32,581 bases of DNA from IMG/VR virus record IMGVR_UViG_3300012032_000006, positions 1 through 32,581 of that record; one strand, 5' to 3'. The translations under genes and the position numbers were made by a program. Position 1 is the stretch's first letter. The number at the start of each line of letters is the position of its first letter. The notes below the pieces were generated by a model, which had not been told where the DNA came from, made no database searches, and worked only from the letters and a program-made list of their open reading frames with translations. Shown here one piece after another: positions 6,001 to 24,268 of the stretch. This DNA is from a virus.

Positions 6001-8156
6001 TTGACGGTGGTAGCTTAAACTACGGCAACGCAACTGGTCTAAATGCTGAAGATATTATAGTTGACGGTGACTTGTTTGTTACTCCTATTACAAGCGGCGG
6101 CCCTGAAGAATTAGTTCCAGGTCAAGTACTTGATTCAGTAGACGTTACAGTTTACGAAAGAGTAGGTGACGGCCAGGCCGAAATATTCAATCAGAACTAT
6201 GTTACTGATGGAGTAACTTTAGAGTATACACTAGGTATTAAGCCAAGCAGCGTCGACGGCGTAATTGTAAAACTTGGAGAAACAATTGTACCAGAAACCG
6301 AATACGAAATAGATATTCAGAACAATACATTAGAATTTAACGACGCACCTTCAATAGGACAGAAGTTAACTATCCTAACTGTTGGGCTAAGTGGTAATAA
6401 TGTTCTTGACATTGGAACAGTTGTGTCTAATGGTGCAGAAAAGATTATTGAAACTTCTGTAACTTTACGTGCTGACGTTTCTACACTGTTGCTAGTTAAT
6501 GGCGAAGTTCAAGGTAGCACAGATGTTCTAGTACTAGAAAGAAACGGTCTAGTAGCGTTCGAGTTCGCTGTTGCACCGGTACAAGGAGCAGTAATTGACT
6601 TTGCTGTATTCGTACAGCCGGAAGACGGTATACAGACGTTTAGTCGTGTGTTGAGAGACACGTTTACAGGTGACGGTAGTACCGCAGCTTACACGCTGTC
6701 ACAGGCACCAGGCGCACAAGACCCAGTTGAGTTCTTTACTTTGGTAAATGTTGATAATGTTATTCTTAGCCCGGGCTATAACAAGCAGTTTGTTATTGAC
6801 AACACAACTCAGCTAGAGTACAGCTTCGATAACTTCCAGATACCAGACTTTACTATTGACCCTGCACAAGTTAGAGTCTTTGCAGACGGTAATGAACTGG
6901 TACGTGGTCGAGATTATCTAGTAACAATTGCAAACAGTAGCTTTAGACTAGATCCTGCTTTCTTAATTGAAGGCACAGTAATCGAAGCATATTACACTGC
7001 TGATGCAGACTACTTTATTGATGATAACATCATTACGTTTGCTACTACACCTGATATGGACAAGTCTATTGATGTGTATCAGTTTACTAATCACGATGTA
7101 CTGGATCCAGAGCGTATCAGTTACGATATTACAGCAAGAAGTCATCTTGTTCCTGGAACAGACGAGTTTACAACTTATCACAACTTGCGTGGCGGCAAAG
7201 TCATACTAAGAAGTGCTGCCGCAGGTGTCCAATATGTTTGGGTAGTTGTAAATGGCAAATTGCTATCACCGTCAGATGATTATACGTTATCTGTTGACAA
7301 CAAGATAGTTTATCTTGTAGAGGAGCCTGAAGTAGGTGATTCTGTTGATGTGTTCCACTTTGCAGCACCTGTGCGCACACCTCGTATGGCGTGGAGCAAG
7401 TTTAAGGACATTCTCAACAGGACTCACTACAAGCGTGTTGATAATGCAACCGGTCTTTCACTTGCACAGCCTTTAAACGAGTACGATTTGCGCATTGAAG
7501 TAAATAACGCAACGTCGTTAGCAGTGCCAAGTAAAAGCAGAAATGCACCAGGCATTATCTTTATCGACGGTGAGCGTATTGAATACTTTGTTAAAGACGG
7601 TAATACACTGCGTCAACTACGTCGTGGCACACTGGGTACAGGTGTAAAAGAAACTTACCCAGCCGGCACTACAGTAATTAACAACAGCAGTAGCAAAAAT
7701 ATACCGTATCAGGACAAAACTGTTACGCAGGTAATTGAAAACGACGGTAGTTCAACTAGCTACGAGACACAGTTTAACCTAGGCGGTATAGTACTGAAAA
7801 GTAGTCAGACTTACAGAGACTTTTTTGAAGTGTTTGTAGGCGGTCGCAGGTTGCGCAAGAATGCTAGACAGGAATACCAGTTTGATATGGTTGATGAAGA
7901 TGGCAACATTGTTCAAGCAATTGCACCAGATTCACCCGCAGGCGACATAGAAGTCGACAGAGAGTTTGACATTGTAGTGGATTCGGCAACTAAGGATGTT
8001 ACCTTAGAGCTAGCAGAGTTGCCGTTAGAGAATGAAAGCATTGTAATAGTAAGGAAGACAGGTAGACTTTGGAGCGATCCAGGCACTGCATTGAAGGATG
8101 CTGATAATTCTATTGGCGATTTCTTAAGAAAAAGCATAAGTGAATTACCTGAATAA
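1..8156 (+). CDS. Giant multidomain virion structural protein (5'-truncated by the window)
   Basis: The frame read from base 3 is open from the left edge to the TAA at 8154-8156, so at least 2,717 residues are encoded and the true start lies upstream. The in-frame GTG at 507 is internal. Regions by DNA position: about 1890-2620, FG-GAP/beta-propeller-like repeats (FGTSISLSPDG, LAIGEPDND, RFGQQVSL); about 2630-3660, a module I recall from large marine T4-like phage proteins (WWDLSTARF, VDVYEW-like, KWFDSLVGAD, RPRQSWFVNRREALK); 3730-4000 and 4900-5130, Gly-rich repeats (VTITGGGGAGATAQA); 5200-7380, several fibre-type beta modules of the pattern GDGSTxxYTL...VxVNG...YT...IxF...P..G; about 7560-7640, the IDGERIEYF...LRRGTLGTG motif; and a C-terminal segment (RLWSDPGTALKDADNSI...FLR...LPE). 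No membrane segment or enzyme motif was seen. A baseplate or proximal tail-fibre role is inferred from composition and from the fibre genes downstream. Confidence 0.85.
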   Translation, partial: IYLEWNEYTNLNRINNNSTSDVFEQIVPFGDVNTDVTDVIDVEFIEKGHDIVRKVDNILYIDQAQSLPSVGDTVTTDSGSGVVYKRFQQDFDLVLYLVDVQGFIDVTDSLFFEGDLVGTYTQPGTTINPELGGWWYIETDSGDSSESVYTNSEADASIDDFGDQAVGLVYQDFIQVRAEAPNRAVNKFYNIADELGELGDTEIRSFITSLSFVGDIQQTSGQTVYEDSRWVIRLPADQTVQQELISAGEFQLWVNNSLVSDDVTDYGFDYSYLNGVQGLSPVTHTIEELWDGYIDFDFTVTQTQDIDGDGTVGDFYEPDGSLGIDPATVFDDVTIARAEVVYYQKRAQTKGRIYVKLNANNQSLGREFTVNNIIRVDTVEGSIPSNRIMGVITDVSVVDNGLGPLAVIDKGTPFEIAASEEADRFSNPYNDYALVNGEYWFYDVNAETGRDRAAKYPSSSSRDWSQVFNIPVLTTKDPNGIPNQGVFDIFERAGNNWVWVSSYFVPLTGQDSNAGKELQFAKEGNLYRLFVSTEDKVYVFKNGFDADGVEYKWALDTDPRYRGELGAIPSSVQISTGDIVRFDDTLYTAKTIVTSNETPATLGSTSKWELSGNNVVVESFLPHTATEDLYGDSTFTDAGVLEFAITTAVSSTGQVVAITVETDSQDFTDEDYRVLVYRQQNNRYVLSQIIDPERAGTRFGTSISLSPDGKTLAIGEPDNDEVADNQGLVSVYKLANGQFELAQIVESSANERAVRFGQQVSLTSNFLAVSSSISDIVLPTDFTDSTVFDNGFTTFSERWNNIGGVTLYELIDGTYLYADQLEFDNANVSQFGDVLLAVRNHVYVGAPDLTVDDRLGALIDFRRSQGVSAWNKIREPKPVIDLNKIKEVYLFDKRTNQLVTYLDYIDVRQGRIAGTAAQEINYRTFVDPARYNISNQEILLDTVNNWEEENVGKTWWDLSTARFVHPYQGDPVFQSTNWNSLLPGASIDVYEWVETDILPSRWDEIADTSEGVARGVSGQSRYGDSVFSQKLKYDPVAGNFSNVYYYWVRNKFTVPNIESRKISAGNLARLIQDPNQENYQYAAFTSDNRFVVYNIDSLLYSDDIVLAVNQYTLENQEQNVHAEYQLISEGLETSLPKRDIERKWFDSLVGADERGRAVPDPDLSPRQKYGTLFRPRQSWFVNRREALKQVIERANIALASQPVVDSKDLTKLLSAEPMPGTETRLYDYAIDTIEELRFIGTSRAVRATLDATVVDGRVVDVDVVSPGRSYKDPTFDNSSGGQRRGPSVTVLGNGENLQVELFIDNLGKVSGVDIIDAGESYTGNITLLVRPLSVLVRADSTIGGRWAIYEWNSGTGEWQRSSTQDHDVKNFWDYADWYAEGVNQFTLVNFRVDQTYQLPSIDDDIGDVVRVENVGTGGWLLLRKINDFDTNDTTLNYETIGREDGTIQLNTLLYDNSLNGVGFDRASYDNKFFDAEPAIETRIVMQALKEDLLIEELAVEYNALFFTSLRYVFSEQLNVDWAFKTSFVKAKHNVGGLDQDITFRNNTLPSYNDYVEEVKPYKTNIREYVSALERVEDTNSVVTDFDLPPRYDEAQDRIIPRQVTVVDNNLIGLDATFDEYPDKNWTDNVGFKVTEIQVSDGGSRYLFAPKVTITGGGGAGATAQAFISKGKVRRVQVLTAGNGYLGAPTVTLAPPSNQEGVTANASATIGESVVRSMRVEIKFDRIAKRAAILTLDEKQTFIGTAVNTEFALNWPMSLSDSTVTITIDGREALRSEYTFRNVTDNSLSYERQHGVIEFSAPPALDANIVVNYKKDSSILTAPERIDYLYNPTSGMIGKDISQLMTGVDYGGVEVRSFDFDTATGWDNDEWATSPWDLYDTTYEDLVFELDGSTTLLELASPLEDGVVYNVYKDSESNYTGGAVFGAYYNAVRIDDPDYDGSTVIDNSNAVMESITGDGAQTIIDLDELGVSTVDGDILIIRKSTSDGSLLPDTTSFDTQLDGGSLNYGNATGLNAEDIIVDGDLFVTPITSGGPEELVPGQVLDSVDVTVYERVGDGQAEIFNQNYVTDGVTLEYTLGIKPSSVDGVIVKLGETIVPETEYEIDIQNNTLEFNDAPSIGQKLTILTVGLSGNNVLDIGTVVSNGAEKIIETSVTLRADVSTLLLVNGEVQGSTDVLVLERNGLVAFEFAVAPVQGAVIDFAVFVQPEDGIQTFSRVLRDTFTGDGSTAAYTLSQAPGAQDPVEFFTLVNVDNVILSPGYNKQFVIDNTTQLEYSFDNFQIPDFTIDPAQVRVFADGNELVRGRDYLVTIANSSFRLDPAFLIEGTVIEAYYTADADYFIDDNIITFATTPDMDKSIDVYQFTNHDVLDPERISYDITARSHLVPGTDEFTTYHNLRGGKVILRSAAAGVQYVWVVVNGKLLSPSDDYTLSVDNKIVYLVEEPEVGDSVDVFHFAAPVRTPRMAWSKFKDILNRTHYKRVDNATGLSLAQPLNEYDLRIEVNNATSLAVPSKSRNAPGIIFIDGERIEYFVKDGNTLRQLRRGTLGTGVKETYPAGTTVINNSSSKNIPYQDKTVTQVIENDGSSTSYETQFNLGGIVLKSSQTYRDFFEVFVGGRRLRKNARQEYQFDMVDEDGNIVQAIAPDSPAGDIEVDREFDIVVDSATKDVTLELAELPLENESIVIVRKTGRLWSDPGTALKDADNSIGDFLRKSISELPE

Positions 8157-8159
8157 ATA
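8152..8159 (+). promoter_or_regulatory. T4-type late promoter octamer (AATAAATA)
   Basis: AATAAATA matches the T4 late consensus TATAAATA at 7 of 8 bases and overlaps the stop codon of the giant virion gene. The ATG of the next gene is 25 nt beyond it, leaving room for a start site about 6 nt downstream and a short leader. Similar octamers sit in the same place before three other plus-strand genes in this window. AT-rich stop-codon junctions can produce such matches by chance. Confidence 0.45.
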
Positions 8160-8184: not shown

Positions 8185-8793
8185 ATGGTAAACGAAACTA
8201 ACGGCGTGTTCATACAGGGACACATCAAAATACACGATCCTGAAACTGGTGAGGTTCTTGTCAACAAAAAGAATGCTATCCATTATGAGAATATGAGTAT
8301 TGCCCTTGCACAGAGCTTGGGCAACGAAGGCAACGGTCCTATATCTGAAATGAGCTTTGGTAACGGAGGCACTAGTATTGATCCTACAGGTGTTATTACG
8401 TATCTTACTCCTAATTCAACAGGCACTAATGCTAGTCTCTATAATCAAACATTCAGTAAAATTGTCGACGACAGAAACGCTAACAATTTGGATCCGAATA
8501 GAAACAAGATAGAAACAAGACACGTAAGCGGTACGAACTACACTGACGTTATTGTTACTTGTTTGTTAGACTACGGCGAGCCAAATGGGCAGGATGCGTT
8601 TGATACAGCAGCTTCAACAGACGCTCCGTTTGTGTTTGACGAACTAGGACTGCGTAGTGCACCGGTTGCAGGACAGGAAAGAGGCAGATTGCTAACTCAT
8701 GTTATCTTCCATCCAGAACAAAAGTCACTCAACCGGTTGATACAAATTGATTACACCGTCAGAGTGCAGAGTCTCAGTGGAGGTAATACCTAA
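8185..8793 (+). CDS. Conserved virion (tail/fibre-associated) protein, 202 aa
   Basis: A 202-residue protein without a signal peptide or membrane segment. The N-terminus (GVFIQGHIKIHDPETGEVLV, then NAIHYENMSIALAQSL) and the GNGGTSIDPTG turn resemble small phage tail and fibre-associated proteins. The second half (FVFDELGLRS, LLTHVIFHPEQKS, IQIDYTVRVQS) is beta-rich and resembles a C-terminal pattern common in tail-fibre assembly regions. I recognise the type rather than a named family. It lies 28 nt after the giant virion gene, and its TAA overlaps the next ATG by one base (TAATG), which suggests translational coupling to the first fibre paralogue. It could be an adaptor between baseplate and fibre; that role is inferred from position only. 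Confidence 0.7.
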   Translation: MVNETNGVFIQGHIKIHDPETGEVLVNKKNAIHYENMSIALAQSLGNEGNGPISEMSFGNGGTSIDPTGVITYLTPNSTGTNASLYNQTFSKIVDDRNANNLDPNRNKIETRHVSGTNYTDVIVTCLLDYGEPNGQDAFDTAASTDAPFVFDELGLRSAPVAGQERGRLLTHVIFHPEQKSLNRLIQIDYTVRVQSLSGGNT

Positions 8794-12735: not shown

Positions 12736-12743
12736 GATAAATA
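12736..12743 (+). promoter_or_regulatory. T4-type late promoter octamer (GATAAATA)
   Basis: GATAAATA matches the late consensus TATAAATA at 7 of 8 positions and lies 3 nt after the stop of the second fibre paralogue. The following gene starts 29 nt beyond it, with an AAGGGG ribosome-binding site at 12756-12761. The placement resembles the octamers at 8152, 14265 and 30123. Confidence 0.45.
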
Positions 12744-12772: not shown

Positions 12773-14269
12773 ATGGCTTATCAGATAGATAGATACAACA
12801 GATCTCTATTAACAGTAGTCGAAGATGGAACAATTGACGAAACAACAGATTTACGTTTTATCGGTAAAAATTACGCAGGATACGGCGAAATTCATAACGA
12901 GAACTTTTTGTTCTTGCTTGAAAACTTCTCAAACGCCAATCCACCACCACGTCCACTTAGTGGCCAGCTTTGGTTTGACAGCGGTCAGAACAAGCTAAAA
13001 TTTTATGACGGAACTAACTGGCGTTCAACAGGCGGCTCAGAAGTATCTGGTAACCAGCCAGTCGGATTAACCATTGGCGACTTTTGGTGGGATAGCTCAA
13101 ATGACCAGCTTTATGTGTACAACGGCGCATCATTTGTTCTAGTTGGACCTCAGAACGCAGGCGTAGGTACAACACAGCTAGTAAGTCAGACTATTCTTGA
13201 CACTGACAGTAACCCAAAAAATATCATTGTTGCAATTGTTAACGACGGAACTATCGACGTACCTGTTGCAGTGTTTTCATCAGACGAAGCATTTACAATT
13301 CTTAGCGATCCAGGCAACAGCTTAGACGGTTTTGACAGAATCTACGAAGGTATCACTCTAAGAGATCTTGACAACGGCGGCGTGTCGACTGAAAACAACA
13401 GTTCAGCATTTAGATTCCGTGGCACAGCAACAGATTCTAGTAGACTAGGCGGTGTTGTTGCTTCAGCGTATGTTCAAGCAGCCAACCCAACATTTACTTC
13501 ACAGATCGTTGCAAACAACAACGGTATATCTATCGGCAGTGACTTTGTTCTTTCTACAAACTCAGTAGGACTAGATCCTGCTTATGGCGAAGTTAGAAAT
13601 AACAGCGGCGCCGAAAACGAAATTCGTTTTGTTACAAAAGACGCTAGCAGTGCTGATGCATTTCCGTTGACACTAACCTACGAAGGGCTGTTCCCAGGAG
13701 CTAACTCAGTTTATAACCTAGGCAGCAGCAGTCTTAGGTTTAATGAGATATATGCAGATTCGTTTGTTGGCGGTTCTGCTCAGGTTGCAGATCAGCTAGA
13801 CGTAGACGGTACTCCTCGTACAGCAGATACTGATGCAACACCAAACACAATAGCAGCCCGTGACGGTAATGCTGACCTCTATGCAAATGAATTTGTTGGT
13901 ACAGCTACTAGCGCAAAGTTTGCTGACTTGGCAGAAAAATACACAACTGATCAAACGTATCCAACAGGCACAGTAATGGCAGTTGGTGGTCCTATGGAAA
14001 CTACCGCAGCACCGCGCGGCGACCTAGTAGTTGGCGTAATTTCTGCAGAACCTGCCTTTTTAATGAATAAAGACATCGACGGTCAGGCTATTGCACTAAA
14101 AGGACGAGTTCCTGTGCGTGTTGTAGGCGAGGTTAAGAAAGGTGGCACAATTTATTCAAACGGTAACGGTGTAGGAACTGCTGATCTTTCTCCTAATATA
14201 GTTGGAATAGCGTTAGAAAGCAAGAGCTCACTCCAAGAAGCCCTAGTTGAGTGTGTGCTCAAGGTATAA
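12773..14269 (+). CDS. Third tail-fibre paralogue with Peptidase_G2-like C-terminal domain
   Basis: A 498-residue fibre. The shared N-terminal module is clear: GYGEIHNENFLFLLENFSNA, GQLWFDS...LKFYDG, GDFWWDS...LYVYNG, VLVGPQN, then a stretch ending SAFRFRGTATDSSRLGG. Near residue 315 is the shaft motif YNLGSSSLRFNEIYADSFVG, seen before C-terminal processing domains in phage fibres. The last 115 residues (FADLAEKYTTDQTYPTGTVM, LVVGVISAEPAFLMN, ALKGRVPVRVVGEVKKGG) follow the layout of the Peptidase_G2-type autoproteolytic/chaperone domain at phage tailspike C-termini. That assignment is by pattern only and the catalytic residues were not confirmed. The gene has its own late-type octamer and ribosome-binding site and is followed by another octamer. 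Confidence 0.82.
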   Translation: MAYQIDRYNRSLLTVVEDGTIDETTDLRFIGKNYAGYGEIHNENFLFLLENFSNANPPPRPLSGQLWFDSGQNKLKFYDGTNWRSTGGSEVSGNQPVGLTIGDFWWDSSNDQLYVYNGASFVLVGPQNAGVGTTQLVSQTILDTDSNPKNIIVAIVNDGTIDVPVAVFSSDEAFTILSDPGNSLDGFDRIYEGITLRDLDNGGVSTENNSSAFRFRGTATDSSRLGGVVASAYVQAANPTFTSQIVANNNGISIGSDFVLSTNSVGLDPAYGEVRNNSGAENEIRFVTKDASSADAFPLTLTYEGLFPGANSVYNLGSSSLRFNEIYADSFVGGSAQVADQLDVDGTPRTADTDATPNTIAARDGNADLYANEFVGTATSAKFADLAEKYTTDQTYPTGTVMAVGGPMETTAAPRGDLVVGVISAEPAFLMNKDIDGQAIALKGRVPVRVVGEVKKGGTIYSNGNGVGTADLSPNIVGIALESKSSLQEALVECVLKV

Positions 14270-14272
14270 ATA
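14265..14272 (+). promoter_or_regulatory. T4-type late promoter octamer (exact TATAAATA)
   Basis: An exact match to the T4 late-promoter consensus TATAAATA, overlapping the TAA of the third fibre paralogue (14267-14269). The next start codon is 24 nt downstream, with AAGGA at 14286-14290 as ribosome-binding site. It is the strongest of the four plus-strand octamers in this window. Confidence 0.6.
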
Positions 14273-14296: not shown

Positions 14297-15307
14297 ATGG
14301 CAGTTAATGTAGGCGATTTAATTACAGCCGCAGACTACAACAGTTTACAAGGCAGAGTGTCAAACGTCTTAGGTAACGGCTCTAACGAATTTGGCTACGG
14401 CCAGTCGTTAGACAGCAGTCAAACAAGTATAGGAACTATTGTTACAGCACAACGTCTTTTGAACCTTCGTGCAGATATGAACGACGTCTATACACACCAA
14501 ACAGGCAACCCGATTCCACTTGATCCGATTGCTACTGGCAACGTTATTGGCGCAGACGAGTCCGAAGGAAATGTATCCAAGGGCTTTAACGACTATCTTA
14601 CGCTGATGGCAACGTTGGAAAACAATAAGTTTGACATTGCGCTAACACAGCAAGCAGTTAATAACAGTATTGAATCGGACACTAGAACAAGTCAGTGGAG
14701 TTATGCTTCTATTATTACTGAGTTTACTGTTTCGTTTACCTCTGTAAACGCTCGCAGGTACTTTTTTAACTCCGGCGGACAGATAAGAGTAAGCGGTGCT
14801 GTATCTAACCTTGCTTCGGGATCACAGAGCTTTCAGCGTAACCTCGGCTGGCAAGACATGGTTGAGAACCCAGGTGTAGTATTGTATGGCATCGATTATG
14901 TCGACGTAACAAACACATCAGCGTTAAACGTTTCGTTTCCAGGTACGTTGGCTCCACCTGGTCCAGGCGGAAACCCGTTTCGCCCGGGCGATCCTGGTCC
15001 TGGCCCGGGCGATCCTGGACCAGGTGGAGCCAACGGCGAAGAAGATATCACATCAACCTACCAAACTATTTTCAGAAAGGATGCTGACGCAGGCGTTTAC
15101 GAAAATAGTTACTGGACAGTCGAAGCAAGAAACGACAGCAACACAACAATTAGGTACAGAGTTACGCTTGTAGACAGCGGCCCAGAAACAGGACCAATTC
15201 AAGAACCAGTAACTGCTGATATCACTATCAACTCTGGTGCACGCCGATCGGCAGGTGCAGTTGAGATTCCATTCCCTGCTTTTGCAGTAACAAATCTTTT
15301 CGAATAA
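14297..15307 (+). CDS. Virion structural protein with Pro/Gly-rich linker, 336 aa
   Basis: The N-terminus (VGDLITAADYNSLQGRVSNV, LGNGSNEFGYGQ, LLNLRADMNDVYTHQTG) is of a type frequent in marine phage fibre regions. The next part (GFNDYLTLMATLENNKFDIA, SVNARRYFFNSGGQIRVSG, QRNLGWQDMVENPGVVLYG) is beta-rich. Residues about 216-247 are a Pro/Gly-rich linker (APPGPGGNPFRPGDPGPG, with PGDPGPG twice). It resembles collagen in composition, but the period is seven, not an unbroken Gly-X-Y. A C-terminal domain of about 85 residues follows (YQTIFRKDADAGVYENSYWT...AVTNLFE). It starts with ATG after AAGGA, behind an exact late-type octamer. It is probably a distal or accessory virion component. The DNA of the linker contains a perfect 22-bp inverted repeat, annotated separately. 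Confidence 0.8.
   Translation: MAVNVGDLITAADYNSLQGRVSNVLGNGSNEFGYGQSLDSSQTSIGTIVTAQRLLNLRADMNDVYTHQTGNPIPLDPIATGNVIGADESEGNVSKGFNDYLTLMATLENNKFDIALTQQAVNNSIESDTRTSQWSYASIITEFTVSFTSVNARRYFFNSGGQIRVSGAVSNLASGSQSFQRNLGWQDMVENPGVVLYGIDYVDVTNTSALNVSFPGTLAPPGPGGNPFRPGDPGPGPGDPGPGGANGEEDITSTYQTIFRKDADAGVYENSYWTVEARNDSNTTIRYRVTLVDSGPETGPIQEPVTADITINSGARRSAGAVEIPFPAFAVTNLFE
14946..15035. repeat. Perfect 22-bp inverted repeat inside the linker-coding DNA
   Basis: The left arm is 14946-14967 and the right arm 15014-15035. The arms are perfect reverse complements over 22 bp with a 46-nt spacer, and pairing fails at the next base on both sides. Each arm contains a shorter palindrome (CCTGGTCCAGG or CCTGGACCAGG). 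The repeat lies wholly inside the preceding coding gene and spans its Pro/Gly linker. If the spacer is read inverted, the frame stays open and still encodes Pro/Gly-rich sequence (GSPGPGPGSPGRNGFP). Confidence 0.9.
14983..15018 (+). repeat. Two 15-bp direct repeats encoding PGDPG
   Basis: CCCGGGCGATCCTGG occurs at 14983-14997 and again at 15004-15018, a 21-bp period that encodes the seven-residue repeat PGDPGPG. The second copy runs into the right arm of the 22-bp inverted repeat. It looks like a small in-frame tandem duplication within the linker. Confidence 0.85.
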
Positions 15308-15310
15308 TAG

Positions 15311-15339
15311 TTGACAAGCTCTCCTTTAGGTTATATACT
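15311..15339 (+). promoter_or_regulatory. Sigma70-like promoter (TTGACA, 17 bp, TATACT)
   Basis: TTGACA at 15311-15316 is a perfect -35 box and TATACT at 15334-15339 is a 5-of-6 -10 box, with the ideal 17-bp spacing. The expected start is near 15346, about 16 nt before the ATG at 15362. It stands right after the last virion gene and before the glycosyltransferase cluster, so it could drive 15362-20270 independently of late transcription. Part of it lies inside a hairpin, annotated next. Confidence 0.75.
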
Positions 15340-15356
15340 ATTGTAATCTAAAGGAG
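15321..15356 (+). promoter_or_regulatory. Hairpin that would sequester the ribosome-binding site of the next gene
   Basis: CTCCTTTAGGTTA (15321-15333) pairs with TAATCTAAAGGAG (15344-15356): 12 Watson-Crick pairs and one G-U, extendable by two more pairs to leave a 6-nt loop. The 3' arm contains the whole AAGGAG ribosome-binding site (15351-15356), 5 nt before the ATG at 15362. A transcript begun at the promoter above would start near 15346 and lack the 5' arm. A read-through transcript from the fibre genes would form the full stem. No U-tract follows, so an intrinsic terminator is unlikely. Confidence 0.7.
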
Positions 15357-15361
15357 ATCTT

Positions 15362-15712
15362 ATGGACGAACGACTAGAAAAAGCATTAGGTTTTTCTAAC
15401 TATATGGTCACGCTCAATAACCAAAAGCGTGTACTCAAAGAAAAATTCCGCGAACAAACAATCTACTATTACAAAGGCAGCCAGTTCACCGTAAGCAAAG
15501 AGCTAATGACTTTTGTAAACATGCTGGTTTACAAAGGAATGCACGAAGCAGTTCTTGTTGATGACAACGAGACTCCGACAATGGTTGACGATTTAACTGA
15601 TTTCAACGACAACCTCTTTGACGTGTACTTTACTGCTACAAACACATTTCACGCAGCATACGAAGAGCTAAAGAAAAACAGGTCAGTGGAGAAACTTACT
15701 GACTATGAGTAA
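15362..15712 (+). CDS. Small conserved marine-phage protein of unknown function, 116 aa
   Basis: A 116-residue, charged, probably soluble and mainly helical protein without signal peptide or membrane segment. Visible segments are ALGFSNYMVTLNNQKRVLKE near the N-terminus, a central MLVYKGMHEAVLVDDNETPT, and a helical C-terminus (YFTATNTFHAAYEELKKNRS). I believe similar small proteins occur in marine T4-like phages, but I cannot assign a function. It has a strong AAGGAG ribosome-binding site that is the 3' arm of a hairpin, and a consensus-like promoter just upstream, so it is the first gene of the transcription unit that continues into the glycosyltransferases. Its last 8 nt overlap the next gene (ATGAGTAA). 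Confidence 0.75.
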   Translation: MDERLEKALGFSNYMVTLNNQKRVLKEKFREQTIYYYKGSQFTVSKELMTFVNMLVYKGMHEAVLVDDNETPTMVDDLTDFNDNLFDVYFTATNTFHAAYEELKKNRSVEKLTDYE

Positions 15713-16589
15713 AGGCGTCCTAGTTTTTGCTCGCAACAACTCCCATATTGACTACGTAAAGCAAGCGTATTTTCTAGCCCAGCGAGTAAAAGAATACCTC
15801 GACCTTCCTACGGCAATTGTTACTGACAGTTTAGAATACCTTTACGACAATTTTCCAGACGCAGACAGTGTGTTTGACAAAGTGATAAAAATTGTTTGGA
15901 CAGAAGAAAACCTAAACGACAGTGCAGTGATGTCAAACAGCGAAGACCATAAACTCAAGAATTTCCATGATGGCAGCATTTCAGTTAAGAAGCTAGAGTG
16001 GAAAAATGAAATGCGAACTACAGCGTACGACGCTTCGCCATACGACGAAACTCTTGTGCTGGACACTGACGTTGTAATCTGCAACGACAAGTTCTTAACG
16101 TGTTTCGCACAGCATCAAGATCTTCTTATGTACAGAAATTGTTTTGATCTCGCAGGTATTGATAGAGGCCAAGAATTTGACTTCGTGTCTGAGACAGGGG
16201 TCGACTTTTATTGGGCTACCGCTGTGTTTTTTAGAAAGACGCCGGCGAATAAGACATTTTTTGGGTTGGTACAGCATATACACGATAACTGGTTGCACTA
16301 TGCCTATATTTTTCAGTTAGCGAATTCGTTGTACAGAAATGATTATGCGTTCAGCATAGCTGCTCATATCATGAACGGATACCAAAGAGGCAGTTTAGTA
16401 GCAGACATGCCAGGTACGCTTTACTATGTAACCGATAAAAGTATCCTGTGGCAAATTGAAGGCAATAGTCTGTTTCTACTTCTAGAGAAAGACAAGTACA
16501 AAGGCGAGTATGTTCCGCTGCGAACTAAAGACGCTAACGTCCATGTAATGAACAAGTTTAGTTTAAATAGGTGTATTGATGATCAATAG
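15705..16589 (+). CDS. GT-A-like glycosyltransferase, 294 aa
   Basis: It has the layout of small GT-A-fold nucleotide-sugar glycosyltransferases: an N-terminal strand with FARNNSHIDYVKQAYFLAQR, a second strand with TAIVTDSLEYL, and a metal-binding DxD at residues 120-122 in YDETLVLDTDVVI. Downstream elements (VDFYWATAVFFRKTP, NDYAFSIAAHIMNGY, ANVHVMNKFSLNR) fit acceptor and product-side segments, including a C-terminal His. It is a paralogue of the next gene (shared YVKQAY, FDKxI, SPYDxTxVLDxD). It is presumably cytoplasmic; donor and acceptor are unknown. The ATG overlaps the preceding gene by 8 nt, so translation is probably coupled. Confidence 0.75.
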   Translation: MSKGVLVFARNNSHIDYVKQAYFLAQRVKEYLDLPTAIVTDSLEYLYDNFPDADSVFDKVIKIVWTEENLNDSAVMSNSEDHKLKNFHDGSISVKKLEWKNEMRTTAYDASPYDETLVLDTDVVICNDKFLTCFAQHQDLLMYRNCFDLAGIDRGQEFDFVSETGVDFYWATAVFFRKTPANKTFFGLVQHIHDNWLHYAYIFQLANSLYRNDYAFSIAAHIMNGYQRGSLVADMPGTLYYVTDKSILWQIEGNSLFLLLEKDKYKGEYVPLRTKDANVHVMNKFSLNRCIDDQ

Positions 16590-17415
16590 AGGATTTTTAA
16601 TCTACGCAGAAGGTGCCGATTACGTAAAACAGGCGTACCTTTGTGCGCTGAGTATTCAGTCGGCATTTAACTCGTATCCGATTAGTGTTGTTACAAACGA
16701 CACTGTGCCTGAAGAATACAAATGGGTATTTGACAAGATAATTTCTATTCCGTGGTACGAAGAAACATCATCGCGTTTTAAGACAGAGCATCGTTGGAAG
16801 TTATATCACGCCACTCCGTACGAAAATACAATTGTCTTGGACGCAGATACATTAGTGCTAGACGACTTAGCAACTTTCTGGGATTTCCTTAAAAACTACG
16901 AAGTCTACTTTCCCTGCAGAGTGTTTACATACAGAAACGAACTAGTCAACGAAGAAACCAACCCGTACCGCGGAGCGTTTAGAGACAACGAGCTTCCGAA
17001 CTTCTATAACGCTGTGCACTACTTTAAAAAAGGCGAAACAGCAAAAGAGTTTTATGCGTGGGTTGAGCTTATCACTAAGAACTGGGAACTGTTCTACGGC
17101 AGCTTCTGTAAAAATCATTTCCCTAAAGAACCCAGTATGGATATTACTACAGCCATTGCTAGTCGCATTATGGACATTGACGATGACATTTCCAATAGAG
17201 GTTACTCGGATCCCCACGTCACACACATGAAGCCGGGCATCCAGAATTGGTCGTCAGATCCTAACAAGTGGCAGCAAAAAGTAGGTGCGTATCTCACAGA
17301 CGATTTGAAACTAAAGATAGGCAACTATACCCAGTATGGCGTTTTCCATTATGTAGAAAACGACTTTGTAACAGACGAAATAATAAGGAAGTATGAAACA
17401 TGGCTGAAACGTTGA
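16579..17415 (+). CDS. GT-A-like glycosyltransferase, paralogue of the preceding gene, 278 aa
   Basis: I chose the ATG at 16579 over a TTG one codon upstream. The protein begins MINRGFLIYAEGADYVKQAY, continues with ISVVTNDTVPEEY and FDKIISIPWYEE, and carries the DxD motif DAD at residues 88-90 in ATPYENTIVLDADTLVLDD. The C-terminal part has NFYNAVHYFKKGETAKEFYA, SMDITTAIASRIM and VTHMKPGIQNW. It shares its N-terminal half with the gene before it at the level of motifs, so the pair looks like an old tandem duplication. It is likely a retaining or inverting sugar transferase acting on a phage or host glycan; the substrate cannot be read from sequence. The 11-nt overlap with the preceding gene suggests coupled translation. 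Confidence 0.75.
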   Translation: MINRGFLIYAEGADYVKQAYLCALSIQSAFNSYPISVVTNDTVPEEYKWVFDKIISIPWYEETSSRFKTEHRWKLYHATPYENTIVLDADTLVLDDLATFWDFLKNYEVYFPCRVFTYRNELVNEETNPYRGAFRDNELPNFYNAVHYFKKGETAKEFYAWVELITKNWELFYGSFCKNHFPKEPSMDITTAIASRIMDIDDDISNRGYSDPHVTHMKPGIQNWSSDPNKWQQKVGAYLTDDLKLKIGNYTQYGVFHYVENDFVTDEIIRKYETWLKR

Positions 17416-17981: not shown

Positions 17982-18870
17982 GATTAGAGTAGTAGACCAA
18001 GACATCATATTTTTAAGCTATGATGAGCCCAATGCAGAAAAGAACTATGCGGATCTATGCTCTAAGATACCATGGGCAAAGCGTGTACACGGTGTCAAAG
18101 GCAGCGATGCAGCCCATAAAGCCTGTGCAGCTCTAAGCGAAACTGAATACTTTGTAACAGTAGATGCTGACAACATCATCTCTCCTGAATTCTTGAACAT
18201 TGAAATTGACCTAGGCGAACTAGGATTAACTGCAAGTCACGTGTTTAGTTGGTGCGGCAAGGTGCATGTTAACAGCTTAATGTATGGCAACGGCGGACTT
18301 AAAATGTGGACGCGAGAATTTGTCAACAACATGCGAACACACGAAAACTCCGACGGCGAAGATCATCGCAGTGTAGTAGAATTCTGCTTCGACAATCGTT
18401 ACTACCAGTTTAACGACAACTACAGCACGAGCTACACAAATGCCACACCGTTTCAAGCATGGCGAGCAGGGTTCCGTGAAGGCGTAAAGATGAGTTTAGA
18501 TCAAGGAGTAAAAGTACAAGACATACGTTCTGTGTGGTGGCAAAATTATGACAGGCTGCTGATTTGGTGTAACCTAGGCGCCGACGTCGAAAACGGCATC
18601 TGGAGCATCCTGGGTGCTCGCGAAGGATGCTGGCTGACTAACTGTTCCGACTGGGACTATTCTCAAGTGCGTGACTTTGAGTACCTAACCAATTACTGGG
18701 AAAGCAAGACTAATATCAAAGACGAAGACGACGCTACCGACGAAGCAGCTTACTTTGGAAGAGAGTTGCGTGAAAAGTTAGGAATCGAAGTAGCAGACAT
18801 GGATGCAAACTCATCAAAGTTTTTTAAACAGGTGTACGCTAACTCACCAAGAATTCTCAAGAGGACATAA
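17971..18870 (+). CDS. GT-A-like glycosyltransferase (SYDEPNAEKNY type), 299 aa
   Basis: The N-terminus has DIIFLSYDEPNAEKNYADLC, then AKRVHGVKG, AHKACAALSETEYFVTVDAD with the DxD at residues 65-67, the layout of GT2-like GT-A enzymes. The middle segment (CGKVHVNSLMYGNGGLKMWT) is a likely acceptor-side loop, followed by TPFQAWRAGFREGVKMSL and a Trp-rich stretch with WCNLGADVENGIW. The same core (SYNEPNANKNY, RVHGIKG, VVDGD, YGYGGVKLLPS, FSTWRSAFRECAKL) forms the C-terminal half of the gene at 30150, so the two are paralogues. It is probably cytoplasmic; the donor sugar is unknown. Its stop and the next ATG share one base (TAATG). Confidence 0.75.
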   Translation: MSNKIRVVDQDIIFLSYDEPNAEKNYADLCSKIPWAKRVHGVKGSDAAHKACAALSETEYFVTVDADNIISPEFLNIEIDLGELGLTASHVFSWCGKVHVNSLMYGNGGLKMWTREFVNNMRTHENSDGEDHRSVVEFCFDNRYYQFNDNYSTSYTNATPFQAWRAGFREGVKMSLDQGVKVQDIRSVWWQNYDRLLIWCNLGADVENGIWSILGAREGCWLTNCSDWDYSQVRDFEYLTNYWESKTNIKDEDDATDEAAYFGRELREKLGIEVADMDANSSKFFKQVYANSPRILKRT

Positions 18871-20270
18871 TGAACGACGAATTAGAAAATATTAAGAACA
18901 TAATTCCTACTACCAATGCAGAAATTAGTCCGACGTTCTGCATGGCCAAGTGGCATCATACTACTATCTACCTGCAGACCGGCGAGACTCATAGTTGCTA
19001 CCATCCAGCACCTCATAAAATTCCGCTTGAAGAGATTATAGACAATCCGAGTGCGCTACACAACACCAAGCAGAAAAAAGCCGAGCGCAAAGAAATGATG
19101 TGCGGTAACAAGCCGGGCGGCTGTAACTACTGCTGGAACATTGAAGCAATGGGCGAAGAGTATGTGAGTGATAGGCATATAAAAACGGCGTCTATCTATA
19201 CGCCCGAACGTCTAGAAGAAATCAAACAAGGCGGCGCCGAATACAACGTTAACCCAGAGTACATTGAGATTTCGTTTGCCAACGAATGCAACTTCAAATG
19301 CGGCTACTGCCATCCTAAAGCTAGCAGCAGATATTGGCAAGAGATTAAGAAACACGGTCCCTACGATATGTCTACCGATCACAGGCAAGATATTGACTGG
19401 TTCAAAGTGTTCCATCGTGAAGACGAGAATCCGTATGTGAAGGCATGGTGGGCATGGTGGCCTGAAGTGTCCAAAACCCTAAACATTTTGCGTATAACAG
19501 GGGGTGAGCCACTTATGCACAAAAGCACATGGGAACTGTTTGAACGTCTTGACAAGGATCCTAAGCCTCACATGCAGTTAGAGATAAACTCTAACCTGGG
19601 TGTAAAGCCTGCTCTTGTTAAGAAGATGACGGATACGCTCAAGCGTCTTAAAGACGAAGACAAAATCCGCAGCTTTAAGCTATACACCTCTATCGACACA
19701 TGGACAGACAGAGCAGAATATACACGAACAGGTCTTGACATAGACCTATGGGAACAGAACCTAGACTATTTTCTAAGAAACACAGGATGGCCGGTGACGT
19801 TCATGATTACGTTTAACCTGTTTTCGGTAACAAGTTTTGATACACTACTTGAGAAGATATTGGAATGGCGAGAGAAGTACAACGATGATTCTAATTCTAC
19901 TCAATGGCAGAGAATCAGATTTGACACACCGCACCTTAAAGAGCCAACGATATACGACATGAACATTCTGCCCAAAGCAGAGTTTATGCCGTTTATGAAT
20001 ACTCATCTTGATTTCTTTAAGCAGAATCTAGATGACTCAGATAGAACGAAGTTCACGTCACTAGAATATGAGAAGTTTAAGCGTGTTGTTGATTATATGG
20101 AATCAACTTATTATGACAACGTTGCGTTGAAGACAGCTCGTATTAATTTTTACAATTGGTTCAATGAACACGACCGTCGTCGTGGAACTAACCTAGTGCA
20201 CACGTTTCCTGAACTACAGAACTTTTATGAACTGTGCGAAGACCTAACTCATTCTGCAAGAGTTTTGTAA
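18870..20270 (+). CDS. Radical SAM protein with N-terminal auxiliary Cys region, 466 aa
   Basis: The radical SAM cluster motif CxxxCxxC is at residues 140-147 (ECNFKCGYC), followed by the SAM-binding GGEP at 211-214 and LYTSIDTW further on. Before it, residues 24-88 hold five further cysteines (C24, C43, C78, C85, C88, as FCMAKWHH, HSCYHP, MMCGNKPGGCNYCW), a pattern like the twitch/SPASM auxiliary iron-sulphur region but placed N-terminally. Marine phages often carry radical SAM proteins labelled twitch-domain proteins; their substrates are unknown. It should produce a 5'-deoxyadenosyl radical and modify a peptide or sugar substrate. It is the last gene of the plus-strand unit and overlaps the convergent minus-strand gene by 22 nt. 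Confidence 0.82.
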   Translation: MNDELENIKNIIPTTNAEISPTFCMAKWHHTTIYLQTGETHSCYHPAPHKIPLEEIIDNPSALHNTKQKKAERKEMMCGNKPGGCNYCWNIEAMGEEYVSDRHIKTASIYTPERLEEIKQGGAEYNVNPEYIEISFANECNFKCGYCHPKASSRYWQEIKKHGPYDMSTDHRQDIDWFKVFHREDENPYVKAWWAWWPEVSKTLNILRITGGEPLMHKSTWELFERLDKDPKPHMQLEINSNLGVKPALVKKMTDTLKRLKDEDKIRSFKLYTSIDTWTDRAEYTRTGLDIDLWEQNLDYFLRNTGWPVTFMITFNLFSVTSFDTLLEKILEWREKYNDDSNSTQWQRIRFDTPHLKEPTIYDMNILPKAEFMPFMNTHLDFFKQNLDDSDRTKFTSLEYEKFKRVVDYMESTYYDNVALKTARINFYNWFNEHDRRRGTNLVHTFPELQNFYELCEDLTHSARVL

Positions 20271-21475
20271 AAGTTATAGAGCTTGGTCTTTGTATAGCGA
20301 GACTCTACTAGTACGTTGTAGTTGTACATTAGAGTTTCGCTGTACTTAAATCTCCATTCTATTTGTTCTTCTCTAGTCATTGACCTAAGCATATCACAGG
20401 TATCTTCGATAGTCTTTAGCAACATTTTGTATCGCTTTCTTGGGTCTATTTCGTTGTCGAATGACAAGTCAAAGTATTCGTCAAGCGGCTGATAACCTAA
20501 CGTTTCTAGTTGCCTATTACAACCAGCCTGCCCCCAGATTAAAAACGGCTGACACAGCATCAAAGGTCTGAACGTTTTTTCACTGTAGAAGAGTGCAGTT
20601 CCTTGATGGTTGTTTACATGAGTCTCGTTAACGATATGAAATACAGTCTGTGCGTATAGATCAGAGTAGTCTGTGTGAACAGCCCAGTTAGTTCGAAAGT
20701 CTGATCTGTCAATAGTTAGAGGTAAGCACTTCTGCCATTCGGCAGTTTGTTCTTTAGTTACGCCCATTGGGCCTACCAAATGGTTTAGAGCATACAGATC
20801 GCCGTCAGATAGTACGTCGTGACTTACTAGTCCTTCGTCCTTTATTTTACTTGTAGTTAGAAAGTAAGTAGACATCGTGCGATAAGGTCTATTCACTCTG
20901 CTTAGACTGCTAAAGAATTTTCCGGTATACATCTCTTCGACTTGGTTCTTGATAATCTTTAACTGAGACTGTTTTGGCCTAGTTGAAACGTCTGCAATAG
21001 GAGGTAATACTGCGTTTTCAAACGCAGGAAAGGGGAACACATGAATTGGCACTGTGTTCTTTGTAGCACAGTACCTTTTAATGTTCTCTTCGTCTTTTAA
21101 GTTGCTACTGAGATAGATTACCATTTTCGGGTCTATGTTGTATTCTTTGCAGTTGTGATAAACCGCGTCGAAGAAAGGGAATTCGAAAAACGGGCTATAT
21201 CCTTCGTTGCTTGCATCAAAGATAAAGTAGCATTTGCCTTTTCTTATTTTATTAAGCATCTTAGGTTTAATGTATTTGAAAATGTCAGTAGTATGCGTCC
21301 ACTTGCCATAGTCCATCAACACATATACAAACTCTTTATTCTGTAGAAAACTAAGTTCATTTTCTGTATGATAGAACATGTGATCGAAAACTAAATTATG
21401 ATAGGTGAGATAGTTAGAGAAATCTATCTCTCTCATAAAAGGATTACTGAATATTGCGCTTGTTCTGAATTTCAT
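20249..21475 (-). CDS. GT-B-like glycosyltransferase candidate, 408 aa
   Basis: The recognisable part is C-terminal: FYSEKTFRPLMLCQPFLIWG at about residues 297-315, followed by CNRQLETLGYQPLDEYFDLS. An E-K pair followed by PF and Gly resembles the donor-binding signature of GT-B enzymes such as alpha-fucosyltransferases (TEK...P...G). Upstream is SSLSRVNRPYRT (residues 189-200), matching NRPRSHR and NWRYAAHR in the related proteins at 24234 and 28781. The N-terminal half (FVYVLMDYGKWTH, CYFIFDASNEGYSP) is specific to this gene. No signal peptide was seen. The ATG overlaps the stop of the aminotransferase upstream by 4 nt (ATGA), so the two form an operon. The glycosyltransferase assignment rests on motif similarity only. 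Confidence 0.55.
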   Translation of the reverse strand: MKFRTSAIFSNPFMREIDFSNYLTYHNLVFDHMFYHTENELSFLQNKEFVYVLMDYGKWTHTTDIFKYIKPKMLNKIRKGKCYFIFDASNEGYSPFFEFPFFDAVYHNCKEYNIDPKMVIYLSSNLKDEENIKRYCATKNTVPIHVFPFPAFENAVLPPIADVSTRPKQSQLKIIKNQVEEMYTGKFFSSLSRVNRPYRTMSTYFLTTSKIKDEGLVSHDVLSDGDLYALNHLVGPMGVTKEQTAEWQKCLPLTIDRSDFRTNWAVHTDYSDLYAQTVFHIVNETHVNNHQGTALFYSEKTFRPLMLCQPFLIWGQAGCNRQLETLGYQPLDEYFDLSFDNEIDPRKRYKMLLKTIEDTCDMLRSMTREEQIEWRFKYSETLMYNYNVLVESRYTKTKLYNFYKTLAE

Positions 21476-22152: not shown

Positions 22153-22896
22153 ATGAAAGAGCAGTTTGGAATTATCGGATACGGTATCGTTGGCACTGCA
22201 ACTAATTTGTCAATCTGTGATGGTGCTGCGGTTGTGCACGACATCGCTCTTGATACAAAGTTTGAAGATCTAAAAGACTGCACAGTAGTTTTTATCTGTA
22301 TTCCTACAGAACACAAGTCAGACATTAACAAAGTGTTTGAACTATCAAGAAAAATTAAAGAACAGAACGGCGATTGTAGAATAGTTATCCGCAGCACACT
22401 ACCTGTGGGTACTTCTGCTCGTATACAAATTGAAATCGGAAGGAAGATAATTTACCTGCCAGAGTTTCTACGCGAAAGACATTGGTCGGAAGACTGCAAG
22501 CATCGTCCACTGGTAGTGGGTACACAGTTGTTTGACGTTCCTGCGTTTTTAAAAGAACAAGGATTCTATGCGTGTAGCCTTGAAGAAGCAGAAACACTGA
22601 AGATGTTCAACAACAACTTGTCAGCTCTTAAAACAGTGTTTGCAAACCACTTCTACGACTTATGCAATAAGATAGGGGCCGACTACAACACAGTTCTGCA
22701 GATGCATGAACTAACAAAACATGATCAAAGCTATCTCAAAGTAAACCAAAATCTAAGAGGGTTTGGAGGCAAGTGCCTGCCTAAGGATTTAGACTTTATC
22801 ATTAACACGTTTGATACTGCTGACCTAGATCAAATGTTGTTTACAGCGATGAAGGAAGACAACAGTCAATGGCCAACGACCGTAAGAAAATCTTAG
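22153..22896 (+). CDS. Short UDP-glucose/GDP-mannose dehydrogenase-type protein, 247 aa
   Basis: The Rossmann motif GIIGYGIVG (residues 6-14) begins the protein. IRSTLPVGTS and IYLPEFLRERHW (compare PEFLREG of UDP-glucose dehydrogenases) follow, then the central-domain signature with AETLKMFNNNLSALKTVFAN and the catalytic-cysteine motif GFGGKCLPKD (C208, K211). The family normally runs to 380-450 residues; this protein stops soon after the catalytic motif and lacks the C-terminal UDP-binding domain. It could be a minimal sugar-nucleotide dehydrogenase forming a uronate, or it may need a partner; a full-length paralogue lies at 25190. Its 3' end overlaps the epimerase gene by 28 nt in another frame. 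Confidence 0.75.
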   Translation: MKEQFGIIGYGIVGTATNLSICDGAAVVHDIALDTKFEDLKDCTVVFICIPTEHKSDINKVFELSRKIKEQNGDCRIVIRSTLPVGTSARIQIEIGRKIIYLPEFLRERHWSEDCKHRPLVVGTQLFDVPAFLKEQGFYACSLEEAETLKMFNNNLSALKTVFANHFYDLCNKIGADYNTVLQMHELTKHDQSYLKVNQNLRGFGGKCLPKDLDFIINTFDTADLDQMLFTAMKEDNSQWPTTVRKS

Positions 22897-23768
22897 TTAC
22901 AGGATCTAGTGGACTAATCGGCAGACCACTCTACGAGCGATTAGTGGCCGAAGGTCATGAAGTAGTAGGAGTTGACAACAACTCACGCTTTCCTGAGCGC
23001 GTTCCTCCCTACGCAACTAATGAACTTGGTCTTGTTGAGTACCTCTCCTTAGCTAAAAACGACTTTGATGTAATCTATCACATGGCAGCTATCAACGGCA
23101 CTAGTAACTTCTACAGCCGTCCAAACGAAGTTGCCCAAAATAACATTGCTTGTGATATGGCGCTGATACAGTTTGCGCTACAAAATTGTGCTACGAAGCT
23201 TGTGTACGCTAGTAGCAGCGAATTAGTAGCGGGCACTGGCACAATTCCCTCGCCAGAAGAGAGCACAGTTACAATAGAGGATATACACAACCCGCGTTGG
23301 AGTTACAGACTGCCAAAGATTGTTGCAGAAAATTACCTTGTGAATAGCAGTATAGATTACGTGATAGTTAGATACTTCAACGTTTATAGTGAACTGTCAG
23401 GAGCAGGTCATTTTGTGCGCGACGTAGCTGACAAGGTAAAAGACAAACGGTTTGAAGTCGACAGTCCTTATGAGACTAGATCGTTCTGTTATGTTGATGA
23501 TGCGATAGATGCAACAATTCGACTAGCAGACACACAGAGTAAACAGATTTTTAACGTTGGTAGTGATGAAGAGTTGCGGGTGATAGACGCAGCAAACGTT
23601 ATTGCAACAGCACTAGGAGAAAGTTCAGTAAACTGGGTAACACACTCAAGCAAACCAGGCAGCTCAAAAAGACGATGTCCTGATCTTACTAAAACAAAAA
23701 CAGTATTAAAAAACTTCAGCCCTCGCACGTTTGGCGAGGTAATAGAGGAGATAAAAGATAAACTATGA
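22869..23768 (+). CDS. NAD-dependent sugar-nucleotide epimerase/dehydratase (extended SDR), 299 aa
   Basis: It begins with the nucleotide-binding TGSSGLIG (residues 11-18), then HMAAINGTSNFYSRP, the active-site serine region YASSSELV (about 113-120), and the catalytic YxxxK at Y146-K150 in WSYRLPKIVAENY. IVRYFNVYSELSGAGHFVRD and RSFCYVDDAIDATIRLA are typical of GalE-like extended SDR proteins, as is the ending with a candidate substrate-binding region (SSKPGSSKRRCPDLTKTK). The length of about 300 is normal. It should epimerise or dehydrate an NDP-sugar, using NAD as cofactor; which sugar cannot be said. It lies between the dehydrogenase and an oxygenase gene with 28-nt and 4-nt overlaps, so it is part of one operon. 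Confidence 0.82.
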   Translation: MANDRKKILVTGSSGLIGRPLYERLVAEGHEVVGVDNNSRFPERVPPYATNELGLVEYLSLAKNDFDVIYHMAAINGTSNFYSRPNEVAQNNIACDMALIQFALQNCATKLVYASSSELVAGTGTIPSPEESTVTIEDIHNPRWSYRLPKIVAENYLVNSSIDYVIVRYFNVYSELSGAGHFVRDVADKVKDKRFEVDSPYETRSFCYVDDAIDATIRLADTQSKQIFNVGSDEELRVIDAANVIATALGESSVNWVTHSSKPGSSKRRCPDLTKTKTVLKNFSPRTFGEVIEEIKDKL

Positions 23769-24268
23769 TGACGGGTCGTATACCGATAGAATGTGATTTG
23801 TCAGAATTTCACAACCTTGATTACAAAGCAGCTACAATTGACGAGATTTATTTGTCTAAGTTTATTGAAGCAGGGCATAACTACGAACAGATACAATTGT
23901 TTAACTACTTTGAACCCAACCCTATGCCAAAGGTAGTTGAGGAAATAAAAAGTCATTTTTCGTACTTGAAACACCTAACCGCAGCAGTAAATTTTGTTCC
24001 GCCTGGCAATTATCTACCTCTTCACGCCGACTTATATCAGAGGTGGCGCGAAGTATTCCAAGTCTCAGACGTAAACAGCGTTCATCGATACATAGTTATG
24101 TTAGGTAAGAGCAGTCCAGGACAGATTTTACAAGTAGGTAATAGGTGCTACTCGACTTGGGAAGCAGGAGACTACTTTGGTTGGACAGGCAGTAAAGAAC
24201 ATGCAATTTATAATTTTAGTTTAGGATACAGATATGCTATTCAGCTTACGGGATGTCATGGAAAATAA
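23765..24268 (+). CDS. 2-oxoglutarate/Fe(II) oxygenase-like (aspartyl hydroxylase-type) protein, 167 aa
   Basis: A short jelly-roll candidate. NYLPLHADLYQRWREVF gives the HxD iron-binding pair (H87, D89). VHRYIVMLGKSSPGQILQVG and WEAGDYFGWTGSKEHAIYNF supply the middle strands and the distal H146, and RYAIQLTG gives R156 for binding 2-oxoglutarate. This order is the aspartyl/asparaginyl beta-hydroxylase pattern. It would hydroxylate a protein side chain or a small molecule; the substrate is unknown. It is more distant from the three oxygenase-like proteins at 26409-28204 than these are from each other. Its start overlaps the epimerase stop (ATGATG/TGA); a second ATG directly follows the first. 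Confidence 0.65.
   Translation: MMTGRIPIECDLSEFHNLDYKAATIDEIYLSKFIEAGHNYEQIQLFNYFEPNPMPKVVEEIKSHFSYLKHLTAAVNFVPPGNYLPLHADLYQRWREVFQVSDVNSVHRYIVMLGKSSPGQILQVGNRCYSTWEAGDYFGWTGSKEHAIYNFSLGYRYAIQLTGCHGK

Follow-up and report, generated by a model that had tools for sequence, protein, structure and literature searches.

As a rule, the timing of phage gene expression is attributed to the choice of the active promoter. In the insertion sequences IS10 and IS50, transcripts that originate outside of the element fold and hide the start site of the transposase gene, whereas RNA started at the promoter of the element itself does not fold in this way. In bacteriophage T4, the Shine-Dalgarno (SD) sequences of the lysozyme gene e, of soc and of gene 49 are hidden in long early RNA and free in RNA derived from late promoters that reside in the hairpin's 5' arm (PMC3014915), and for gene e a 100-fold effect has been reported (PMC3014915, PMC2988022). 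Equally, hairpins sequester the ribosome-binding site (RBS) of homing endonuclease genes such as T4 I-TevI, I-TevII, I-TevIII and segB and Aeh1 mobE (PMC2988022). The original prediction on the locus described here, made from sequence, had correctly named the precedents e, soc and 49, to which I-TevI can be added (PMC3014915, PMC2988022). In the Rak2-like jumbo phage CBB, a late motif ATAAATA is located 5' of structural genes, and for CBB-type phages no description of a promoter-embedded RBS hairpin was found (PMC5259590). A limited literature search equally found no description of a sigma70 version of the T4-type RBS-hairpin switch.

The window and its gene neighbourhood

The window, that is the whole stretch of DNA analysed, is a 32,581-base IMG/VR virus fragment from an incomplete record and derives from a large, marine-type phage. 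A PHROG family of virion structural proteins is matched by the product of its long first open reading frame, a quarter of which also aligns, at about 30% identity, with structural proteins of jumbo phages such as PA5oct, 121Q/PBECO4 and CBB; the kinship of the window to such phages is distant. A run of tail-fibre and structural genes extends up to the locus of interest (Table 1), where the three genes 15362-15712, 15705-16589 and 16576-17415 overlap in series, with radical SAM and nucleotide-sugar enzyme genes beyond. This nucleotide-sugar cassette 3' of the fibre genes (18870-20270, 20249-21475, 22153-26407 and 31426-32529) encodes radical SAM proteins, a DegT-type aminotransferase fragment, UDP-glucose/GDP-mannose dehydrogenases and an NAD-dependent epimerase. 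A second, strong inverted repeat is present at 14933-15035 within the fibre gene 14297-15307; its two arms, each about 20 pairs long, have their ends near 14968 and 15013. It encodes a Gly-Pro-rich stretch (PGPGGNPFRPGDPGPGPGDPGPGGAN) and by plain pair count outscores the promoter hairpin at 15316-15361.

The first of the overlapping genes encodes a 116-aa protein that has no Pfam or PHROG match. Its confident AlphaFold2 model (pLDDT 90.6) consists of a helix, a beta hairpin, a helix, a second beta hairpin and a final helix, with a 104-aa uncharacterised phage protein as the best match in BFVD (TM 0.82), followed by DUF4376 proteins. A search of the PDB with the model gave no significant match and no recognisable DNA-binding fold. 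The topology is prefoldin-like, but a role as a prefoldin-like fibre chaperone, which was considered, is not supported by the scores.

Table 1. Position of promoter, hairpin, genes and late-type motifs in the window
Feature	Position	Strand	Remark
Late-type motif AATAAATA	8152..8159	+	5' of gene 8185-8793
Late-type motif GATAAATA	12736..12743	+	5' of structural gene 12773-14269
Late-type motif TATAAATA	14265..14272	+	5' of the fibre gene directly before the hairpin
Directly upstream gene	14297..15307	+	in tail-fibre/structural gene run
-35 element TTGACA	15311..15316	+	sequence; conserved in relatives
Hairpin 5' arm	15316..15335	+	core 15320-15335, outer pairs 15316-15318; anti-SD CTCCTTT in promoter spacer
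-10 element TATACT	15334..15339	+	17-base spacer from -35
Hairpin 3' arm	15342..15361	+	core 15342-15357, outer pairs 15359-15361
Predicted transcription start	15346	+	7 bases past -10, by spacing rule
Shine-Dalgarno AAGGAG	15351..15356	+	every base paired in long RNA; belongs to ATG at 15362
Controlled gene	15362..15712	+	116-aa protein MDERLEKALGFSNYM...
Next gene, 294 aa	15705..16589	+	overlaps stop of controlled gene

Promoter and hairpin in front of the 116-aa gene

The original prediction described a TTGACA-17-TATACT promoter overlapping with a stem of 13-15 bp, the 3' arm of which holds the AAGGAG of the gene at 15362. Promoter and SD are located as proposed, the promoter at 15311-15339 being the single match to TTGACA-N16-18-TATACT in the window and the top sigma70-like site between 10 and 20 kb, where sites scoring 9/12 occur as a class at chance level. 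The stem is equally real, but longer than proposed: the hairpin at 15316-15361 comprises 19 pairs around a 6-base loop, 16 contiguous ones between 15320-15335 and 15342-15357 and three outer ones (15316-15318 with 15359-15361) across one mismatch. Computed at 37 C for the RNA in isolation, as were all fold energies, its stability amounts to -22.9 kcal/mol (z -7.3) with none of 200 dinucleotide shuffles equally stable, and a z of -7.2 is obtained upon shuffling of spacer and leader alone with -35, -10 and SD kept. The exact repeat TCTCCTTTAG...CTAAAGGAGA occurs once in the window at a chance expectation of 0.00, and the single occurrence of the exact promoter pattern equally exceeds chance expectation. 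A chance palindrome was rejected on the basis of these shuffles and of the permutation across homologues.

The promoter overlaps the 5' arm in such a way that RNA from the predicted start would lack the entire arm. In the long transcript, opening of the SD costs 14.5 kcal/mol versus 2.6 kcal/mol in the short transcript from around 15346, with 4.1±1.6 kcal/mol upon shuffling of the upstream sequence, and the fold of the long RNA assigns the SD a paired probability near 1. In silico and with a predicted start site, both transcripts thus behave as the original prediction had it, the short one without the 5' arm leaving the SD accessible and the read-through RNA folding over it.

No U-tract follows position 15361 (TTATGGACG), and a terminator scan lists neither the hairpin itself nor, from 12365 up to it, any terminator-like site of the + strand, on which grounds an intrinsic terminator was rejected; a search of the window against Rfam gave 0 matches at gathering score. 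The hairpin might nevertheless terminate or stabilise the late fibre mRNA as a terminator or exonuclease block at its 3' end, with incidental pairing of the SD. Such a function would be in line with a very stable hairpin right behind the fibre stop, which is located 3 bases before the -35 element. Apart from the missing U-tract and terminator call, however, there is no need for a 3' block to take in the SD, and the covariation described below is limited to the spacer and the SD-bearing leader and is absent in the 23 bases 5' of -35, so that we regard this function as very unlikely.

Conservation of promoter and pairing among homologues

Relatives of the 116-aa protein are encoded by at least 538 stretches in IMG/VR. 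A tblastn search for cultured relatives among 50,697 phage records gave no match for either the 116-aa or the subsequent 294-aa protein, and the homologues of the 116-aa gene derive from metagenomes. A fibre-gene homologue precedes the 116-aa homologue at 161-164 of 172 loci, and a homologue of the 294-aa gene is found downstream in all 151 readable relatives. The promoter had been judged to be host-sigma70-like, an assessment with which the relatives agree: among 46 distinct homologous upstream regions, drawn from the first 80 loci, 39 score at least 10/12 for sigma70, compared to 8 of 400 other open reading frames at the same loci. The conserved core of the upstream region is thus the sigma70 promoter, with the hairpin as a second layer. 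Upstream regions of L032, L056, L072 and L078 have kept the -10 element and lost TTGACA; L032 and L072 have TTTCTTAC(C/G)ACTT in common further upstream, perhaps indicative of an activator-dependent promoter.

Compensatory change in the stem, for which a comparison of relatives had been proposed, was assessed in 48 non-redundant homologues, none of which was picked by motif, by comparing, independently of a structural alignment, the duplex energy of own versus permuted combinations of spacer with -10 element and leader (+1 to ATG). Own pairs reach -8.56 kcal/mol versus -5.52±0.28 kcal/mol for permuted pairs, with 0 of 50,000 permutations as low, while the 23 bases upstream of -35 used in place of the spacer as a control give no signal (fraction 0.71). 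Pairing is kept despite differing arms, as in L002 (GTCTCCTAGTGTCAT/ATGACTAGGAGAC), L010 (GCCCCTATTCAT/ATGAATAGGGG, also written CCCCTATTCAT/ATGAATAGGGG), L017 (CTCCTATTAGT/ACTAATAGGAG) and L242 (CTCCTATGACT/AGTCATAGGAG, also written ACTCCTATGACT/AGTCATAGGAGT). That pairing is kept in quite different sequences suggests a real control device. In the homologues the predicted start always follows the 5' arm, and the SD is covered by the 3' arm; in cases with a hairpin the SD is found 8-18 bases past -10, and the anti-SD shifts in the spacer to match.

A different function for the inverted repeat that spans the promoter would be that of a DNA operator, bound by a repressor such as the 116-aa protein or another factor, with RNA pairing as a by-product. 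Operators typically have a near-perfect dyad such as the one centred here on -10, and some bacterial toxin-antitoxin-like matches harbour a full palindrome in the spacer (L316, TACTCCTTTAGGAGTATA). On the other hand, the arms differ in close relatives without a half-site consensus beyond the complement to the SD, the SD is located within the 3' arm of the called hairpins, and the model of the 116-aa protein matches no recognisable DNA-binding fold. Moreover, the centre of the dyad relative to -10 ranges over 7 bases (-2.5 to +4.5) with a variable unpaired middle, whereas an operator for a dimer would fix half-site and spacing. A fixed operator is disfavoured because half-site sequence and spacing vary while pairing of the SD stays, and has, in our assessment, only a slight probability.

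Of 79 distinct homologues, 36 have the hairpin, and the other 43 possess promoter and SD without a stable hairpin. Homologues that keep the SD without the pairing arm, which the original prediction had named as evidence to the contrary, consequently do occur, yet the arms covary family-wide. On a protein tree of few columns, the state of the hairpin changes at least about 10-14 times; L003, the closest sibling of L002, has lost the hairpin together with its CTCC block. Because about half of the homologues keep the SD without the pairing arm, the hairpin is an optional, repeatedly gained or lost layer over a conserved promoter, with the pairing selected where present, yet dispensable. An anti-SD located further upstream in hairpin-less homologues was considered and rejected, as the 23 bases 5' of -35 do not covary; it is also disfavoured by the L045 group, in which opening costs of the long transcript are near the shuffled values.

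Late-type motifs and proposed mechanism

At the homologous loci, 8-mers of the T4 late-promoter type (GATAAATA, TATAAATA) are enriched 5' of genes, and the three late-type motifs of the window (8152, 12736 and 14265) are located 24-30 bases before structural genes. In 45 of 80 cases the NATAAATA motif is found 5' of the fibre gene that precedes the target, and 67 of 589 other genes have it on their 5' side, while it precedes the target gene itself in 0 of 77 distinct relatives. A gp55-like sigma factor is encoded by 9 of 10 large records reached via homologues of the 116-aa protein, with weak matches (E 1e-6 to 1e-7) which could represent another sigma-family protein. In four of these records (G001, G002, G006 and G012, which are the records of L074, L062, L072 and L071, respectively), a perfect sigma70-like site is present about 490-520 bases upstream of the gp55-like match. 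Because of the motif positions and the gp55-like sigma, the sigma70 site is read as an early-type promoter of the gene itself, with late-type transcription presumably entering from upstream.

These observations would be integrated by a switch in which the origin of the transcript decides about translation. Host-type RNA polymerase with sigma70 would start from the 15311-15339 promoter to produce a leader of about 16 bases with an exposed AAGGAG, and this short mRNA would permit translation of the 116-aa gene and probably, via the overlap 15705-15712, also of the next gene. RNA started upstream, above all late fibre transcripts from TATAAATA-type promoters (14265), would carry the promoter as RNA, in which the spacer would pair with the SD as an anti-SD and prevent initiation of translation. 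A ribosome terminating at the fibre gene would halt with about 12 bases left to the main stem and is not expected to hold it open. The 116-aa gene would thus be read from own-promoter RNA only, on as long as sigma70 transcription runs early, with the read-through RNA silent late. Early on and late off is the best reading because late-type motifs precede the fibre gene and never the target; this timing we infer from promoter type and neighbouring motifs only. Start site, read-through RNA and translational repression are deduced from the sequence.

The switch by transcript origin, as originally proposed, is favoured by all sequence-level tests run (promoter conservation, covariation, arm position and late motifs) and is probably the best explanation for the overlap of promoter and hairpin. 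Against it count that the sigma70 site could be active throughout infection, that 43 of 79 homologues are hairpin-less, and that about 5 of the 111 perfect sigma70 sites in eight large relatives, one in front of a homologue of the 116-aa gene, carry an SD hairpin. If true, the start point of the RNA, encoded in the same about 50 bases as the promoter, decides about translation, which would explain an early gene inside a late operon without late expression and without the need for a regulator protein. The signature, an anti-SD in the promoter spacer, would be searchable from sequence alone and would provide a compact part for expression control. Covariation in uncultured phages is evidence of an unusually direct kind that such a device is under selection.

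Distribution of the layout

The viral sequences were scanned with the pattern TTGACA-N5-CTCCT-N7-TATANT-N5-25-AGGAG, and with TCCTC replacing CTCCT as a control. The pattern retrieved 88 stretches versus 23 for the control, from about 44 versus 16 gene families, and the z of the hairpin is below -3 in 73 of the 88 matches versus 6 of the 23. These figures bear on the possibility that only the sigma70 promoter matters, the hairpins arising where an A+T-rich spacer happens to complement the SD leader, neutrally or through its composition. A promoter better conserved than the hairpin, the many hairpin-less homologues and L003 without the CTCC block as the nearest sibling of L002 would agree with neutrality, but permutation and composition-preserving shuffles exclude chance pairing for the family as a whole and the CTCCT spacers outnumber the control, so that this is the least probable of the explanations considered.

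The layout precedes genes for B-family DNA polymerase, ATP-dependent DNA ligase, dCMP-deaminase-like proteins, metallophosphoesterase and UvdE. Polymerase, ligase, dCMP-deaminase-like and UvdE genes have functions that are classically early, which speaks in favour of the transcript-origin switch. The genes preceding the matches of the pattern are mixed, including RNR, UvsX-like, endonuclease, methyltransferase, virion structural protein and head-tail adaptor genes. Because the upstream gene is often not late in other families, it is safer to speak in general of expression from the own promoter only than of an early/late switch. Dense arrays of sigma70 sites in G005 (219-231 kb) and G003 (1-7 kb) are mostly without an SD hairpin, with some folding without pairing of the SD.

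The same hairpin might also insulate the gene from any upstream transcription, as a control of dosage or noise without an early/late switch. Outside of the 116-aa family, early or metabolic genes frequently come before the layout, and a co-directional stop closely precedes the hairpin promoter in 26 of 30 families, compared to 32 of 65 in an unmatched set (p 0.0006). The preceding genes of the 116-aa family, however, bear late-type motifs, and the matched comparison of co-directionality (26/30 versus 13/22) is marginal with p 0.049. Hairpins occur at 42 of 134 co-directional sites versus 6 of 32 others in a set that was itself selected for hairpins, and the association of the hairpin with a co-directional upstream gene is suggestive only. 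Insulation without a switch appears unlikely to us for the locus.

In bacterial genomes, 82 matches to the pattern were found, which are more heterogeneous and partly resemble operators of toxin-antitoxin-like genes. Matches on contigs L301, L289, L310, L316, L302, L324, L349, L355, L291, L356, L314 and L351 precede members of a repeated family, YHGSxxIIEKPxxGYGKPYNDYGLGFYCT, and AbrB- and Phd-like genes, named by reading the sequence. Several of them have the whole palindrome within the -35/-10 spacer, as L316 does, and are closer to a toxin-antitoxin operator.

Returning to the transcript-origin switch, its extension to several phage lineages can be envisaged as a general device that permits expression from the own promoter only, in which the 17-base spacer of a host-sigma promoter serves as the anti-SD of the gene it drives and silences, in read-through RNA, early genes located behind other genes. 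In the 116-aa family these other genes would be late ones, and the T4 gene e switch would thereby be mirrored as early on, late off. This generalization is tentative, and we hold it to be somewhat more doubtful than not.

Comparison with known systems

With T4 gene e, the locus shares that promoter DNA encodes the 5' arm, that own transcripts would lack this arm, that SD and leader constitute the 3' arm and that the long polycistronic RNA is silent, as predicted here from sequence. In contrast to gene e, the translatable RNA of which starts at a T4 late promoter (TATAAATA) while its early RNA is silent, such RNA would start here from TTGACA-17-TATACT; the late-type motif precedes the upstream gene, the expected time order would therefore be reversed, and the genes are not homologous. 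With the I-TevI group, the locus has in common an RBS-hiding hairpin, a promoter near the gene start and a gene that lies within a different transcription unit. Those genes encode homing endonucleases and have mostly late or middle promoters, whereas the conserved gene for the 116-aa protein is unrelated to them and has a promoter of host type. With CBB, the window shares the late-type motif 5' of structural genes (PMC5259590). In IS10 and IS50 the arms derive from the terminal inverted repeat, while here the arm is the promoter spacer itself. By its defining promoter type the locus would be placed outside of the T4 late-switch set, but it would work like a T4 switch. Known is hence the anatomy of T4 gene e and I-TevI, and new would be a host-type promoter in place of the late promoter.
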